This document shows, one piece after another, positions 2,184-42,400 of a stretch of 64,000 nucleotides of DNA. Source of the DNA: an uncultured Bacteroidales bacterium. GTDB taxonomy: Bacteria > Bacteroidota > Bacteroidia > Bacteroidales > FEN-979. The DNA lies in assembly GCA_903915465.1 (NCBI GenBank), contig CAIWTA010000046.1:1-64000 (forward strand), read 5' to 3'. The notes beneath the pieces were generated by a model. The model worked only from the letters and a program-made list of their open reading frames with translations, was not told the origin of the DNA and did no database searches. A program made the position numbers and the translations under genes. Within the stretch, counting starts at the first letter, position 1. Each line of letters begins with the position of its first letter.

Positions 2184-3134
2184 GTGAACAAAGAAGAATT
2201 TTCCTGGGGAAACAACCGCCGGTATAATTCATATTCGGAATATATCAGGAAACTCTTTGGTGAGAGAGTACAAAAAGTTGCCGTGGATGCAGGTTTCACC
2301 TGTCCTAACCGCGACGGAACGAAAGGTATTGGTGGGTGTACTTATTGCGATAACGAGGCTTTCAACCCTTCCTACTGCGATCCGAAGGAATCCATTACTG
2401 AGCAGATCCGCAAAGGAATTGAATTTCATGCTGTAAGGTATCGTCGTGCTGCCCAATTCCTTGTCTATTTTCAACCCTTCAGCAACACCCATGCTTCCAT
2501 TGAAGTACTGAAAGAAAAGTATGAAGAAGCGTTGCTATACCCGGGAGTTGTCGGACTTGTAATTGGAACACGCCCGGATTGTGTGGATGATGAGAAACTC
2601 AGTTACCTTTCCGCACTGGCAAAAAATTATTTTATCCAGGTTGAATATGGCGTAGAAACAACAAATGAGGCCACCTTGACCAGGATAAACCGGGGCCATA
2701 CTTTTGAATTATCCCGAAAAATAATTGAGAAAACACATTCCCTGGGAATTCGCACAGGAGCCCATTTCATCTTCGGTTTGCCAGGTGATACCCTGGAAGG
2801 GATGATGGAAATGGCAGGTCAAGTCTCCTCTTTGCCGATCGATACAGTCAAATTCCATCAACTTCAAATCATCAAAGGAACGGTACTTGAAAAAGAATTC
2901 CAGGCTGATCACTCAGGATTCCATCTCTTTGGCCTCAATGAATACATTGATTTTATTGTGAGTTTCACAGAAAAGCTCAATCCTTCAATCGTCATCGAGC
3001 GATTTACCGGGGAAGTCCCGCCAAGGTTCATTGAAAGTCACAATTGGGGATTGTTGCGGAATGATGAGATACTCCGGCTGATCGAGAAAGAGTTTGAGCG
3101 GAGAGATAGCTGGCAGGGGAAGAATCATATCTGA
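2184..3134 (+). CDS. TIGR01212/YhcC-like radical SAM protein
   Basis: CPNRDGTKGIGGCTYCDNEAFNP radical SAM motif; GTG start. Confidence 0.9.
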   Translation: MNKEEFSWGNNRRYNSYSEYIRKLFGERVQKVAVDAGFTCPNRDGTKGIGGCTYCDNEAFNPSYCDPKESITEQIRKGIEFHAVRYRRAAQFLVYFQPFSNTHASIEVLKEKYEEALLYPGVVGLVIGTRPDCVDDEKLSYLSALAKNYFIQVEYGVETTNEATLTRINRGHTFELSRKIIEKTHSLGIRTGAHFIFGLPGDTLEGMMEMAGQVSSLPIDTVKFHQLQIIKGTVLEKEFQADHSGFHLFGLNEYIDFIVSFTEKLNPSIVIERFTGEVPPRFIESHNWGLLRNDEILRLIEKEFERRDSWQGKNHI

Positions 3135-3204
3135 GATCTGAGCACCGAACTCCGATAGAAAACCGGCTCTCGGATCTCGGATCTCGGATCTCGGATCTCG
3201 GATT
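3127..3204. repeat. GATCTGA/GATCCGA heptad tract arranged as an inverted repeat between convergent genes
   Basis: atatctgagatctgag ... ctctcggatctcggatctcggatctcggatctcgg. Confidence 0.85.
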
Positions 3205-16771: not shown

Positions 16772-17956
16772 ATGAATTCATCCGGCCGGTCTCAACTGAA
16801 AAGTATCTTCAATCCGGTCAGGGAACTGGCCGAAAATGGAAGATTATCAGGAATCCTTCTGATAATGGCAACCCTATTTTCAATCATTTTCAGCAATACG
16901 GGAAACGCCTCTTCATACCTACAGATATGGCACTCAGAAATTGGCCCAACTTTTCTATCCAAGTCTATTTTACACTGGATTAACGATGGATTAATGCCGT
17001 TTTTTTTTCTATTGGTAGGAATTGAGATTAAGAGGGAAATGGTATCCGGCGAACTTTCGCAGTTTCGCCAGGCAATACTTCCGGGATTTGCAGCCATAGG
17101 AGGAATGTTAGTTCCTGCATTCATTTATATTTTCTTCAATAATGGAAATCCGGAAACAAGCCACGGATGGGCTATACCAACTGCCACCGACATTGCCTTC
17201 TCGCTCGGACTGCTTTCTTTATTGGGGAAAAGAGTCCCATTTGCATTGAAAATATTCCTGACAGCGCTTGCCATCATTGATGACCTTGGAGCAATTATCA
17301 TCATTGCAGTATTCTATACAAGCAGCCTGAATCTGTTGATGCTGGTAATGTTCCTCCTGATCTTTGTTTTATTGCTGATTTTAAACCGTTTCAAAGTCCG
17401 GTTCATGTTCCCTTACCTTCTTTTGGGAACGATGCTCTGGTATTTTGTCATGAAATCAGGAATTCATCCTACAATTGCCGGTGTTCTTATGGCTTTCTCC
17501 ATACCTGTAACCATTGCTGAGAAACTGGAAGAAAAGCTGACAAAAGCTGTGTATTATTTCATTCTTCCTCTTTTTGCTCTGGCCAATACGGCTATCCCGC
17601 TGTCGTTCGACATGGCAGCGAATCTGCTTTCACCCATGTCAATGGGAATTATTTTGGGATTGTTGATCGGTAAGCCTGTAGGGATTGTTCTTTTCACTTA
17701 CATCCTTGTGAAGACAAGAATCAGCGAAATGCTGGCGGGGATCAAATGGAAACAGATGATTGGAATCGGGATGGTAGCAGGGATCGGGTTTACCATGTCG
17801 ATCTTTATTGCATCCCTTTCATTTTCCTCCGGTTTCCTTTCGGACATATCAAAACTTGCCATCATTGGAGGGTCGGTACTTTCGGCCATTGTCGGGTTGT
17901 TAACTCTGTGGAGATCATTCAGATCTGAGATCCGAGATCCGAGATCCGAGATATGA
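16772..17956 (+). CDS. nhaA: Na+/H+ antiporter NhaA
   Basis: WAIPTATDIAFSLGLLSLLG, ALAIIDDLGAI, GIGFTMSIFIASLSF. Confidence 0.95.
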   Translation: MNSSGRSQLKSIFNPVRELAENGRLSGILLIMATLFSIIFSNTGNASSYLQIWHSEIGPTFLSKSILHWINDGLMPFFFLLVGIEIKREMVSGELSQFRQAILPGFAAIGGMLVPAFIYIFFNNGNPETSHGWAIPTATDIAFSLGLLSLLGKRVPFALKIFLTALAIIDDLGAIIIIAVFYTSSLNLLMLVMFLLIFVLLLILNRFKVRFMFPYLLLGTMLWYFVMKSGIHPTIAGVLMAFSIPVTIAEKLEEKLTKAVYYFILPLFALANTAIPLSFDMAANLLSPMSMGIILGLLIGKPVGIVLFTYILVKTRISEMLAGIKWKQMIGIGMVAGIGFTMSIFIASLSFSSGFLSDISKLAIIGGSVLSAIVGLLTLWRSFRSEIRDPRSEI

Positions 17957-18033
17957 GATCCGAAATCTGAGATCCGAGATATGAGATCCGAAATCTGAGA
18001 TCCGAGATCCGAGATCCGAGATATGAGATATGA
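17922..18033. repeat. Tandem heptad tract (16 x 7 bp, GATCCGA/GATATGA/AATCTGA/GATCTGA)
   Basis: gatctga gatccga gatccga gatccga gatatga gatccga aatctga gatccga gatatga gatccga aatctga gatccga gatccga gatccga gatatga gatatga. Confidence 0.95.
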
Positions 18034-18055
18034 GACAAATAATAATCAGGATTCT

Positions 18056-18439
18056 TCATTTTATCCCAATTTTTTCTTTCATTTTTCTCTTTATTGAGTT
18101 GAATATTCTGACAAGCTGATCAACCTCATCGTGTATATTCTTGATTTCATCTGTTGACAACATGTTGATCCTCAAAAGATATTCAAGCCAGAAAAGTGTT
18201 TCATCGCACTCTTCAGTTACAATACATATTTTTGAAAAGAATTCTGCATTTGATCTTGCTCTTGTCGCTGCACTGAAGTTGGCAGCAACCGATGAAGAGC
18301 TTCTAATTATTTGACTGACTGTTGGGTTGGTCAGGAAAGTCAACTTTTTTGATTGAAAAAGACCATTGATATTTATAGCCATCTTCATTGTTCTTTCCCG
18401 AAGCATCTGATTGTATCTATCCTTTTCCGAATTTGTCAT
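18056..18439 (-). CDS. Four-helix-bundle (S23/IVS-like) protein
   Basis: QIIRSSSSVAANFSAATRARSNAEFFSKICIVTEECDETLFWLEYLLRI matches the family pattern. Confidence 0.9.
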   Translation of the reverse strand: MTNSEKDRYNQMLRERTMKMAININGLFQSKKLTFLTNPTVSQIIRSSSSVAANFSAATRARSNAEFFSKICIVTEECDETLFWLEYLLRINMLSTDEIKNIHDEVDQLVRIFNSIKRKMKEKIGIK

Positions 18440-18552
18440 GTTTGATTTTCCCCTTAATCATGGAAAATCAAAAAAGTCATACATTTAATGAATCGAAAAT
18501 TCAGAAATAAGAATTCCAAAAGAATAAAGCTAAAAACTGAGTATTTTTCAAT

Positions 18553-18595
18553 TCTCAGATCTCGGATCTCGGATCTCAGATCTCAGATCTGTCTC
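18553..18595. repeat. Inverted-orientation heptad tract (TCTCAGA/TCTCGGA)
   Basis: tctcagatctcggatctcggatctcagatctcagatctgtctc. Confidence 0.9.
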
Positions 18596-19761
18596 ACCAA
18601 CATAACCGTTCCCTTATTGCTGACCTTGGCCTTTTTGTTGTCTTCGTAATAGATTGCCCAGCAATAGATTCCTTCCGGGCACTGTTGTCCATTCATTTTT
18701 CCATCCCATGATTCAAGGATGTTGGTGGAAGTGAAAACAACCTGTCCCCAACGATTGAATATCTGAAGATTATATTTTGTGATATTCTCTACAGGAAGTC
18801 CGACAATCCTGAATTCATCATTAACACCATCACCATTTGGAGTAAAACCGTTCGGGATCCTTGGCAAAACAACTACTGTTACAGTAGTGTCGAATTGTTC
18901 TCCGAGGCAAAGTGTCATAGTGGCCCTGTAAGTAGTGGTTTGAGAAGGAACAACGGTGATACTTTGTTCATTACTGATGAAGCTGGAGCCTTCGTACCAG
19001 CTATAACTGATCTTGTTTCCGGGAACCAGTGGTTCAAGATGAAAAGGTACGGAAGAGATTGCAAAACTATCTACAGGAATAGGATTATACTGCCATCCCT
19101 CCTTCTCAGCAGACCACGAAGTTGCATTTCTTCCCGGAACTGCAAACCCGATCATGCCGGTCTCATTCTGTACTCCAAGGGTTCCTTTATAATTGTCGGG
19201 ACATTGGGGCTTCCTGAAAATCTGATTCTCGATTGTGTTAATTCCTTCATGAAGAATGATCTGGAATGTAGCAACCAGGTCAGTTGGACACCTAAACATT
19301 GGCGTTTGGCACCACATAACGACCAATTTCCGGTTTGGCGATTCTCCTATCGTCAGGTAGTAAATATAATTTCCTAAAGCATCGGGGAGCAAGTCGACAA
19401 ATGGTCCGAGAATGCAGATTTTAGGATTGTACAGGACGCTGCTCGGGACTGCAAAAACAGTTCGGATCCCCGCAGAGCTTACATTGGGAATGAAGCTGAT
19501 CCATCCATTGGCACCAATCCAGAATTGGTGGTAAATATTTCCAAAGAACATGAAATCAAATCCAATCGGGAAAGGACCTTCCACTCCGTCATCATCAGTA
19601 GTAACAGGAATCCCAATCTCACCATACGTGGCGGTAAGTGTCACAGGAACACCCTGATTGATTGTATCATTTGGTCCTGCAGAAAATTGTGCATGGCATA
19701 TCAGAGAGTACAAGCAGAAGCAGGGGATGATAAGGATCAGTTTGATCAGTCTGCTTTTCAC
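18583..19761 (-). CDS. Secreted protein with gliding-motility-associated (T9SS type B) C-terminal domain
   Basis: IPNGFTPNGDGVNDEFRIVGL...YNLQIFNRWGQVVFTS...WDGKMNGQQCPEGIYCWAIYY. Confidence 0.88.
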   Translation of the reverse strand: MKSRLIKLILIIPCFCLYSLICHAQFSAGPNDTINQGVPVTLTATYGEIGIPVTTDDDGVEGPFPIGFDFMFFGNIYHQFWIGANGWISFIPNVSSAGIRTVFAVPSSVLYNPKICILGPFVDLLPDALGNYIYYLTIGESPNRKLVVMWCQTPMFRCPTDLVATFQIILHEGINTIENQIFRKPQCPDNYKGTLGVQNETGMIGFAVPGRNATSWSAEKEGWQYNPIPVDSFAISSVPFHLEPLVPGNKISYSWYEGSSFISNEQSITVVPSQTTTYRATMTLCLGEQFDTTVTVVVLPRIPNGFTPNGDGVNDEFRIVGLPVENITKYNLQIFNRWGQVVFTSTNILESWDGKMNGQQCPEGIYCWAIYYEDNKKAKVSNKGTVMLVRQI

Positions 19762-27591: not shown

Positions 27592-27661
27592 AACTTTTCT
27601 TTATTTTAAATTTTTTTACCACTGAGGCACTAAGATCACTCAGAATCTCTAAGAAGACTAG

Positions 27662-27721
27662 TGATCAACTCATCAACTCATCAACTCATCACCCCATCAG
27701 CTCATCACCTCATCAACTCGT
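27662..27721. repeat. Octamer tract (ATCAACTC and variants) abutting the methyltransferase stop codon
   Basis: tgatcaactcatcaactcatcaactcatcaccccatcagctcatcacctcatcaactcg. Confidence 0.9.
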
Positions 27722-28854
27722 CAATACATCTCAAACTTCACAAACCTGCATTCCAGTGGTCCGTTGTAAAGAATGATCTTTTTCGACGGATGAAGACCGA
27801 TAAACTTTAAGGCTTTCAGGTCCGATGAGATGAACCATGCCTGGTAACCTTTATATTTTTTCTTCAGCACATCTCCGATGGTCTTGTAAAAGCCAATGAT
27901 GTCGTCCAGCTGCAAACGCTCATCATACGGTGGGTTACAAACAATAGTTCCTGGCGCTACCGGAGCGTCCGCATCTTCGAAGGATGTTTTCTTTATCGTA
28001 ATATCATCCAGCAGATTTGCAAAACTCAGGTTCTCCTTTGCATTTTCGATTACCCGGGAGGAGATATCAGAACCGATGATTGGAACCGAATTGCGGATGA
28101 TCCCGGAATCGGCCTGATCCTTTACGGAAGACCACAGATCTGCATCATAATCCACCCATTTCATAAATCCAAAATCATCCCTGAAGTATCCTGCAGGAAT
28201 AGCTTTTGCAGCCATGGCAGCCTCTATTAAAATCGTTCCCGAGCCACACATCGGATCGTAAAACAATGATTTTTTATCCCAACCTGAAAGAATAACCAAC
28301 CCGGCGGCTAGCACTTCGCTAAGAGGGGCAATCCCTTGATTTTTCCGGTATCCTCTTTTATGCAAAGAAGGACCAGAGCTGTCAAGCGAAACCGTACAAG
28401 ATTCTTTGTATATATGAACATTGATTCGGAGATCAGGATTGTCGAGGCTCACGGATGGCCGGGAGCCGGTCTTTTCCCTGAAACGATCCACGATTGCATC
28501 TTTGGTCTTCAGCGAAATGTACTGCGTATTAGTAAAAACAGAAGTGCTGTTCACTGCATCCACTGCCAATGTTTTGCCTGCATCCAGATAATTTTCCCAG
28601 GGAAAATCGAGCATATTCTGGTAAAGATCTTCCTGCTTAACAAGTGAGAATGTCAATACCGGTCTTAAAATCCTTAACGCTGTCCTGCAGGAATAGTTTG
28701 CCCGGTACAGCAGCTTCTTATCACCCAGGAAGGTGACGGCCCGCTTTAGAACCTGAGTATTCTGAGCACCAAGTTCATCGAGTTCGGATTTCAGGGTTTC
28801 TTCAAGCCCGGCAACGGTTTTAGCGGTATATGTGTTCAATTCTTTCGGATTCAC
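27721..28854 (-). CDS. THUMP-domain class I SAM-dependent RNA methyltransferase (RlmL-type)
   Basis: THUMP N-terminus; DPMCGSGTILIEAAMAA; IVCNPPYDERL. Confidence 0.93.
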   Translation of the reverse strand: MNPKELNTYTAKTVAGLEETLKSELDELGAQNTQVLKRAVTFLGDKKLLYRANYSCRTALRILRPVLTFSLVKQEDLYQNMLDFPWENYLDAGKTLAVDAVNSTSVFTNTQYISLKTKDAIVDRFREKTGSRPSVSLDNPDLRINVHIYKESCTVSLDSSGPSLHKRGYRKNQGIAPLSEVLAAGLVILSGWDKKSLFYDPMCGSGTILIEAAMAAKAIPAGYFRDDFGFMKWVDYDADLWSSVKDQADSGIIRNSVPIIGSDISSRVIENAKENLSFANLLDDITIKKTSFEDADAPVAPGTIVCNPPYDERLQLDDIIGFYKTIGDVLKKKYKGYQAWFISSDLKALKFIGLHPSKKIILYNGPLECRFVKFEMY

Positions 28855-34669: not shown

Positions 34670-34674
34670 ACTAT

Positions 34675-34718
34675 ACTCATCAACTCATCAACTCATCAAC
34701 TCATCAACTTATCAACTC
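34675..34718. repeat. Octamer tract (ACTCATCA) between the SPASM gene and cutC
   Basis: actcatcaactcatcaactcatcaactcatcaacttatcaactc. Confidence 0.95.
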
Positions 34719-39362: not shown

Positions 39363-39403
39363 CTGATTTTATTTAAGTTACCAATTGCGACATTTCATCT
39401 CTC

Positions 39404-39427
39404 CATCAACTCATCAACTCATCAACT
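39404..39427. repeat. Octamer tract (CATCAACT x3) beside the secA stop codon
   Basis: catcaactcatcaactcatcaact. Confidence 0.95.
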
Positions 39428-39431
39428 AAAT

Positions 39432-42400
39432 TCACTCTCCTACCCCGTGACAATTCTTAAACTTCTTACCACTTCCACATGGGCATATATCATTCCTCCC
39501 GACACGTTTTTCCACCTTAACTGGCTGCGGTTTTGATTTGTCTTGTGTATTGGAATTGGCTTGAGAAAGAAGGTCAGAGCGTTCCTCTTTCAATCGACTC
39601 CGGTCAGTGCGCTTAGGCGCTTGAGCTTCATGAACATTCTGTACCTGTATTGGCACATCCGCTTTTACAAGAAATGAAGTAATTTCTTTATTGGTTCGTT
39701 GGACCATCGCCTTGAATAATTCGAATGATTCGAATTTATATATCAATAACGGATCTTTTTGCTCATAAGCCGCATTCTGCACAGATTGTTTCAGTTCATC
39801 CATTTCCCTGAGATGCTCTTTCCATGCATTATCGATCATTCCGAGGACAATACCTTTCTCAATTGAGAGAGGAACTTCTTTTCCTTTATCGTTGTATGCT
39901 TTCTTCAGATTGGTAATGACCTGCATGGTTTTTATCCCGTCAGTTACCGGAATGCCAATATTTTCATATTGGCTGTTGTCTTCATAAACATCCTTAATAA
40001 TAGGAAAAGTTTTGTTGGCAATGGTTTCATTTTTTAATTTGTACCTTTTATATACGTGAGAATAGAGGTTATCGGTGACCTCGTCGGCACGAATCGAATA
40101 AAAATCATTTTCACTGAAGGGAGGATCGGTGATAAACTCCTTCACAAGTTCCAGCTTGAAGCCAGTAAAATCGCGTCGTTCCTGGTAATCAAGTACGACA
40201 GTTTCGCAGACATCATAGATCATATTGCTGATATCCACTGCCAGTCTTTCTCCAAACAAGGCGTGGTGTCTTTTTTTATAAATAGCTTCACGCTGGATGT
40301 TCATCACGTCATCATATTCCAGCAACCTTTTCCGGATTCCGAAGTTGTTCTCTTCAACTTTTTTCTGCGCACGTTCGATAGATTTGGATATCATCGAATG
40401 CTGAATGACCTCTCCCTCGTCAATTCCCATGCGGTCCATGATCTTGGCAATACGGTCTGAACCAAACATTCTCATCAGGTCGTCTTCCAGCGAAACAAAG
40501 AACTGCGAACTGCCGGGATCTCCCTGACGTCCGGCACGTCCGCGCAACTGGCGGTCAACACGTCGGGATTCATGCCGTTCTGTTCCAATAATCGCCAATC
40601 CTCCTGCTTCTTTTACTCCTTTACCCAGCTTGATGTCAGTACCACGACCAGCCATGTTGGTTGCGATGGTGACAGTTCCTGCCTGACCTGCTTCCAGAAC
40701 AATTTCAGCTTCTTTTTGGTGAAGTTTAGCATTCAGCACATTGTGTTTTATATTTACCCGCTTCAGCATGCGGCTCAGCAACTCGGAAGTCTCCACAGAA
40801 GTTGTTCCGACCAGCGAAGGTCTGCCGATGGAAATAAGATGTTCAATCTCGGCAATCACCGCATTGAATTTTTCGCGCTTTGTTTTGTATACGAGGTCTT
40901 GTCTGTCATCGCGGATGATCTTACGGTTGGTAGGAATTACAACTACATCAAGTTTATAAATATCCCATAATTCACCTGCTTCAGTCTCAGCAGTTCCGGT
41001 CATACCTGCAAGCTTTTTATACATGCGGAAATAATTCTGCAGGGTGATGGTTGCATAAGTCTGGGTGGCCGCCTCAACTTTCACACTTTCCTTGGCTTCA
41101 ATAGCCTGGTGAAGGCCGTCGGAATAACGTCTTCCTTCAAGGATACGGCCGGTTGATTCATCAACGATTTTGACCTTATTGTCCATCAGCACATATTCGA
41201 CATCCTTTTCAAAAAGGGCGTACGCTTTTACGAGCTGGTTAACTGTATGAACCCGCTCCGATTTCACAGAGTAATCGATCATAAGCTGGTTCTTCTTTTC
41301 CAGCTTTTGTTCTTCCGAAAGCGTCTGGCGTTCAAGCTCAGCCATTTCATTTCCGATATCAGGCAGGATGAAAAGAGAAGCATCTCCAAAAGACTCTGCC
41401 AGCAGGTCAATACCTTTGTCGGTCAATTCAATGGTGTTGTTTTTTTCATCAATAACGAAGAACAATACATCATCGATGATATGCATGTTTTTGGACTGCT
41501 CGGCCATATAGAAATTTTCCGTTTTCTGGAGCAGTGCCTTCATTCCCATTTCGCTGAGGAACTTGATAGTCGGTTTATTTTTAGGAAGGCCACGGTGGGC
41601 ACGTAACAATTGCTCCCCGGCTTTTTTGGCATTTTCTGAATTTTCCAGATCTTCAGAAAGAGACTTTGCTTCTGCAAGAAGTTTAGTCACAAGGTTACGC
41701 TGTGCATTGTACAATTTGACTACTTCAGGTTTGAGCGATTCAAAAGCCTGATTATCGCCTTTTGGTGTAGGCCCTGAGATGATCAGCGGAGTCCGGGCAT
41801 CATCGATCAATACAGAGTCCACTTCATCAACGATCGTAAAGTTATGCGGACGTTGAACGAGTTCTTCAGGATTCCCTGTCATATTGTCGCGGAGATAGTC
41901 GAACCCGAATTCATTGTTTGTACCAAAAGTCACATCTGCGTTATACGCATTCCTTCGGGCATCCGAGTTGGGTTCATACCTGTCAATGCAATCCACTTTC
42001 AGTCCATGAAACTCATAAAGTACACCCATCCACTCAGAGTCACGTTTGGCCAGGTAATCATTCACAGTTACTATATGAACACCTTTGCCAGGCAGCGCAT
42101 TCAGGTAAACCGGAAGTGTAGCAACGAGAGTTTTTCCTTCCCCTGTCCCCATTTCAGCAACTTTTCCCTGGTGAAGGACGACTCCGCCAATCAGCTGAAC
42201 ATCATAATGTATCATATCCCACCGGATCATGTTGCCACCTGCAACCCAACTGGTCTTGAACCGGGCCATATCATCGACAATATCCACATTGGCCTTCTTT
42301 GCTGCCATATCACGATCCATCTGGGTAGCAGTGACTTCGACAAATTCGTTTTCAACAAACCGACTGGCTGTTTCCTTCATCACGGCAAAAGCCTCCGGAA

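Follow-up and report, generated by a model that had tools for sequence, protein, structure and literature searches.

Inverted arrays of short repeats around four-helix-bundle genes suggest a small mobile element of a type not recognised before

Why should a single small gene lie between two tracts of the same heptad in opposite orientations? The locus at 17922–18595 of the window (the whole 64,000-nucleotide stretch of DNA that was analysed, from an uncultured Bacteroidales bacterium) raises this question, with inverted 7-bp arrays around one gene of the S23/Avd-fold four-helix-bundle family (FHB, our shorthand for gene and protein; Table 1). A sequence-only reading had counted 16 heptads in the left tract, all of them GATCYGA; the number is exactly right, and the composition proved to be 10 GATCYGA, 4 GATATGA and 2 AATCTGA. 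Its description of the right tract as the inverted counterpart was confirmed: five full heptads (extent ~18553–18591) read GATCYGA on the minus strand, and alignment with the left tract showed the two to be inverted repeats over 39 bp, identical at 37/39 positions. The window contains 24 two-heptad matches, where shuffles predict 0.07. Folding of the strand scored z = –6.1, with base-pairing of the arms around the FHB gene.

The gene between the tracts is single, intact and S23/IVS-like, as had been proposed (Pfam PF05635, E = 1.6e-13; TIGR02436, 69.9 bits at a cut-off of 24). AlphaFold2 modelled the protein as four helices (pLDDT 96.9), and the only close folds found by Foldseek were the S23 proteins 2rld and 2gsc, which were the top matches, and the diversity-generating retroelement (DGR) protein Avd (chains 4dwl and 8ub7, TM 0.67–0.70). 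Neither rRNA genes nor a reverse transcriptase occurred among the neighbours scanned around the gene, in agreement with the sequence-only reading that neither an rRNA nor a DGR context exists here. An Rfam scan of 17800–18700 returned sub-threshold matches only, none of them credible.

Table 1. Positions in the window of the FHB element, its neighbours and arrays lacking a gene
Feature	Coordinates	Strand	Description
Left array, 3' of FHB	17922..18033	+	16 heptads GATCYGA/GATATGA/AATCTGA
Right array, 5' of FHB	18553..18595	-	5 GATCYGA heptads plus a partial one
FHB gene	18056..18439	-	127 aa, S23/23S-IVP/Avd-fold four-helix bundle, PF05635, TIGR02436
Leader motif GTATGACTTTTTTGATTTTCCATGATTAA	18454..18482	-	Between upstream array and FHB start codon
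nhaA neighbour	16772..17956	+	Reading frame enters left array
Type IX secretion (CHU_C) protein neighbour	18583..19761	-	Stop codon supplied by first heptad of right array
Gene-less facing tract pair	3128..3204		GATCTGA heptads + at 3128-3141, GATCCGA heptads - at 3170-3204; flanked by the ends of two convergent genes
Gene-less octad array AACTCATC	27660..27724		Adjoins stop codon; unit also brackets FHB L003 (contig C205, same genome)
Gene-less octad array AACTCATC	34672..34718		Directly after stop codon at 34669
Gene-less octad array AACTCATC	39402..39430		Directly after stop codon at 39432 (-)

Both tracts at the FHB gene touch the stop codon of a neighbouring gene, as do the three octad arrays of the window and its pair of gene-less heptad tracts. 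The latter had been taken for one tract at 3127–3204; gene-less heptads are indeed present, as two tracts that face each other in the orientation seen at the FHB element. Siting at gene ends is a property of the arrays and contributes to the picture in the window. Since such siting alone could place oppositely oriented arrays between convergent genes, the question had to be settled in relatives. In genomes of five genera, among them one of the window's own genus, a conserved lipoprotein-like gene of ~200 aa (g200) is convergent to nhaA; genome G024 has the order nhaA, g200 and a homologue of the CHU_C gene. The window element stands in the place of g200, which is absent from its own 99%-complete genome. 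Insertion together with deletion of g200 would be the simplest account of the locus, its polarity not being proved; an empty site for this copy, sought as the sequence-only reading proposed, was not found in a close strain.

The recurrence of arrays was measured in the window's order. With corrected starts, 200-bp flanks and ORFs of similar size as controls, arrays with a 7–9-bp unit adjoined 60 of 98 FHB genes versus 25 of 152 control ORFs (Fisher p = 6e-13), and flanked 32 FHBs on both sides versus 5 controls; some of these loci are orthologous and thus not all independent. An earlier count of 111 distinct FHB ORFs, 96 with full flanks, had given 60 with an array and 28 with arrays on both sides. 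The period at FHBs with full flanks was almost always 7 or 8, and shuffled flanks yielded one array in 480 pairs (960 flanks). ORF calls were mechanical and draft genomes often break at arrays; in the window's own genome, several FHBs had no array within 300 bp. The expected enrichment of tracts near homologues was thus found with the unit free to vary and failed for GATCYGA itself, which is almost confined to the genome of the window and is thereby ruled out as a conserved FHB signal. The conserved feature is the layout of inverted 7–9-bp arrays, not the sequence GATCYGA.

The unit varies by clade, and the two arms of a locus are reverse-complementary to each other. The inverted match between upstream and downstream flanks had a median score of 21.8 at FHB loci versus 8.5 with permuted flanks. 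Among the 50 loci that had an array on either side, units compared in reverse complement were 0.82 identical within a locus versus 0.30 across loci, and 0.51 in direct orientation. The notion that inversion merely reflects two convergent gene ends is partly true of siting; as a full account it is ruled out by the inverted arrays of other units in relatives. The leader motif recurred in the form TAnnACYTTT-N-GATTAA upstream of 53/98 FHBs of the order (downstream control 1/98) and at 0/102 loci in the other sets; a role as promoter or as RNA signal is possible. Most FHB pairs compared had dN/dS of 0.05–0.15 (exception L102/L107, 0.84), a sign of purifying selection, so the protein matters.

The unit follows the protein. 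Over 105 array loci, FHB pairs at least 60% identical shared the period in 95% of cases with a mean unit identity of 0.84, which fell to 0.48 for pairs less than 20% identical (Mantel r = 0.19, 0/2000 permutations). At one locus, orthologous between genomes and conserved over its 1.5-kb flanks, the unit was GATTTAC, AAGTGAC or CAATGAC depending on the genome, both arms having changed together. Arrays elsewhere in the window's genome belonged mainly to three families, AGATCYG, AACTCATC and AAAGTCG, which are the units at the FHBs of contigs C46 (the window), C205 and C226; this array sample, unlike the window, was partly picked by GATCYGA. The octad ATTTCGCT, absent from this genome, reached up to 202 copies in genomes of the family, and its counts were greater where an FHB at least 50% identical was present (median 16 versus 3, p = 7e-4). 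The exceptions were G014 and G006, with many octads and no close FHB, and G004 and G002, with AACTCATC and no L003-like FHB. No 7–9-bp array occurred in 155 kb of random contigs from the window's genome, a small sample, so array density is uneven. An FHB of the same genome on contig C19 was considered as a second GATCYGA pair and judged weak, the gene being broken and a tRNA-like sequence lying between it and the tract.

Several further features of the dispersed heptads were recorded. GATCYGA arrays flip strand where they meet an AGATCT palindrome, forming fold-back junctions of the sort expected from template switching (L043 6417–6454, L054 1086–1109, L059 6123–6153, L060 35–58). Arrays of the sister heptad GATGCGA are contiguous with GATCCGA arrays, as unit variants in one tract (L057 2650–2767, L060 1–39). 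A longer dispersed repeat has GATCTGAGATCTGA inside the common context CATTCTCGCATTTCAGATCTCAGATCTGnAATGCCTGCC (L041 5981, L047 785, L056 6048, L059 6123), and a GATCCGAGATCTGA pair at the ends of two contigs has identical flanks, CCACGAAGACA...AATGGTGAAA (L058 5996, L048 6215), and may follow a tRNA-like sequence. Many contigs of the window's own draft genome (G000) end in or near heptad arrays (L050, L057, L058, L061, L063), so copies of arrays and of FHBs are probably under-counted.

The bracket layout was also found in Cyanobacteriota, Chloroflexota, Spirochaetota, Nitrospirota, Acidobacteriota and Pseudomonadota, and on plasmids of Planktothrix, Nostoc, Dolichospermum, Gloeocapsa, Chlorohelix (Chloroflexota) and Treponema (Spirochaetota). 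When Xanthomonas XCC0516 served as the seed of a genome scan, loci were recovered from many phyla; of the 58 with usable flanks, 28 had arrays under a strict criterion. TIGR02436 is present in 228/298 Bacteroidota genomes; only 3 of its 27 best-scoring loci in that phylum had arrays, so the trait depends on the FHB subfamily. Unexplained intergenic arrays of GGGAATC number ~186 in Xanthomonas genomes, and X. campestris has 70 facing pairs (PMC4692102). The prediction that the FHB of this genus would be bracketed by its published heptad was borne out: the XCC0516 ortholog has GGGAATCGGGA upstream and CCCATTCCCCATTCCCGACTCCCTATTCCC downstream, in low copy (2–4 units; L271–L275), and lies between accB- and accC-like sequence, as the neighbours were identified by inspection. 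Plasmid FHB elements are often found inside defence operons (L222, L224, L226, L401, L402, L405, L221), among them DISARM (drmD/MmeI), DUF1156-Swt1 HEPN and helicase/N6-methylase operons and a position between cas genes. On Nostoc pNsp_b, an FHB with a long CTTGCGA array adjoins xisH/xisI genes (L240 1430–1640); a comparable co-distribution of xis and heptads was remarked by MacGregor. In Nostoc UHCC 0870, another palindromic repeat (GGACTAACGTCCCGCTCCGCTAACGC) invades both arms of an FHB element (L239 617–816 and 1189–1230).

Empty sites in Nostoc bear on movement. In ATCC 53789 and N6, the element [CAATTCG]x4-FHB-[CGAATTG]x4 splits a DNA cytosine methyltransferase gene whose unbroken form occurs on three further Nostoc plasmids. 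The target has lost about 320 bp, and the left edge lies at a CAATTCG already present in the unbroken gene. The same element as in ATCC 53789 lies in an Rpn gene of N. flagelliforme, with 86% identity exactly from array to array; comparison with the empty sites in Nostoc C052, Nostoc C057 and Halotia gave a target loss of ~124 bp. Neither insertion had duplicated its target. In the window's family, L191/L200 (84%) and L113/L142 (93%) are alike only over gene and arrays. Going by the aligned empty sites, the unit that moves is the one from array to array, which upholds the earlier suggestion that the inverted tracts are the ends of a small gene-carrying element. Many FHB loci have long occupied conserved positions, stable across genera, and are not actively moving. 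No recombinase or reverse transcriptase was found with FHB elements.

We consider it probable, at about 0.7, that 17922–18595 is a copy of a widespread class of small mobile element whose FHB protein would be a repeat-specific nucleic-acid-binding factor. Such an element would be ~0.45–0.7 kb long and would consist of an FHB gene flanked by two arrays, in inverted orientation, of a unit 7, 8 or 9 bp long. What is established for the class comprises the layout and its recurrence over phyla, mobility with target loss, matching of the arms, co-variation of unit and protein, purifying selection and gene-less arrays of the same unit. As to mechanism, the FHB protein, probably a pentamer, would recognise its own repeat as a hairpin of RNA or single-stranded DNA and promote copying of that repeat by host or trans-acting enzymes, which are assumed because the FHB fold is non-catalytic. 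The other suggestion of the sequence-only reading, that the gene product binds the tracts, would fit this mechanism. Gene-less arrays and array pairs would be the non-autonomous products, and re-copying of one arm from the other through the hairpin would change both arms in concert. Target loss without duplication is compatible with template switching or with an RNA route, and we prefer neither.

Three other explanations were weighed against a mobile element with a repeat-binding protein. The FHB might be a free-living relative of the 23S intervening sequences (IVSs) whose arms act only at the RNA level, as a long helix whose cleavage by RNase III frees host transcripts of the inserted RNA; mobility would be incidental and spread would occur by slippage. 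Intervening sequences in rRNA do have a like layout (a terminal inverted repeat that loops out an S23 gene, and in Coxiella heptamers as well), the predicted RNA helix is strong, and insertions lie within operons, where a removable hairpin would be tolerated. This account leaves unexplained why gene-less arrays of one unit are dispersed at many loci and why the unit is coupled to the protein sequence, and we regard it as unlikely.

The FHB protein might instead be a domesticated regulator whose binding to its repeat controls the transcripts of its own gene and of the neighbours, the arrays being operators or terminators spread by gene conversion. This would suit the conserved leader motif, the many loci stable across genera and the location of arrays near gene ends; array-bounded insertion into unrelated Nostoc genes, with target loss, points instead to mobility and makes this explanation improbable. 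Least credible of all is that the arrays are independent slippage repeats piling up at gene ends, with FHB genes merely inserting or surviving in the same intergenic spots. Arrays are common without an FHB, as the control ORFs show, and the tracts in the window adjoin stop codons. Slippage, however, does not produce copies that flank one gene family in opposite orientations, and it accounts for neither unit-protein co-variation nor array-bounded insertions; we give it very little chance.

A broader form of the mobile-element reading can be put forward only tentatively: FHB proteins throughout bacteria could be sequence-specific partners of 7–9-bp tandem repeats, each reading its own unit and causing arrays to arise, to be rewritten in concert and to disperse, so that rRNA IVSs, the GGGAATC arrays of Xanthomonas, the cyanobacterial heptads and the locus in the window would be one class of mobile element with no nuclease, transposase or reverse transcriptase of its own. 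FHB elements may account for the scattered 7–8-letter repeats of many bacterial genomes. If so, TIGR02436, among the most abundant uncharacterised small protein families, would gain a function and a partner, and the published heptamer arrays of Xanthomonas and Cyanobacteria would be explained. The 1993 proposal that the IVS ORF served mobility, cited by the authors of work on the Coxiella 23S IVS (PMC4990558), would become directly testable. There would be technical interest, too, in a protein that follows a programmable-looking 7–9-bp unit.

How do FHB elements compare with known systems? Published heptamer arrays, GGGAATC in Xanthomonas, GGGGAYT in Nostoc, TAACTGA in Beggiatoaceae, Cyanobacteria and Bacteroidetes, and STRR, are intergenic and often in facing pairs, like FHB arrays; they were described without a protein partner, whereas here, for Xanthomonas, an FHB is bracketed by the same unit. 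No TAACTGA array lay beside an FHB in the fetched loci. For arrays of this unit, MacGregor raised as a speculation that the mobile element responsible could be a repeat-binding protein itself (PMC4679880). Tandem heptamers GACAGAT precede the S23 gene in the Coxiella 23S IVS (PMC4990558), and apart from this remark a literature search with most subscription journals outside its reach returned nothing linking the FHB family to tandem heptads.

The rRNA IVSs with an S23 ORF (Leptospira, Coxiella) are the closest relatives: they have the same protein family and fold, and their terminal inverted repeats form a stem round the gene. The window has both the S23-family ORF and the stem-forming terminal repeats, with nhaA and a CHU_C gene as neighbours in place of 23S or 16S. 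Unlike rRNA IVSs, FHB elements lie between or inside protein genes, their arms are short-unit arrays on both sides, and cognate gene-less arrays are dispersed in the genome. DGR Avd, part of a reverse-transcriptase RNP (title of 8ub7), shares the fold; FHBs differ in having short tandem arrays, with no reverse transcriptase within ~5 kb among the neighbours scanned and no RT domain in the large neighbours from 13.6 to 23.8 kb of the window. With REP/REPIN sequences and their RAYT, FHB elements share one gene within inverted short cognate repeats, many gene-less copies elsewhere and a genome-specific unit. They differ in that the repeats are 7–9-bp tandem arrays, not 20-nt palindromes, and the protein is a non-catalytic helix bundle; the bracketed protein has only PF05635 and no Y1 (RAYT) transposase. 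In place of the target-site duplication of a DNA transposon or MITE, the two Nostoc empty sites revealed target loss. As FHB elements lack the location of an IVS, the reverse transcriptase of a DGR, the RAYT of a REP system and the duplication of a DNA transposon, we file them as a new kind, closest in the way it works to a free-living IVS that disperses as REPs do, and related to IVSs by fold and layout. Were an IVS defined by gene and stem alone, they would count as a new IVS variant.
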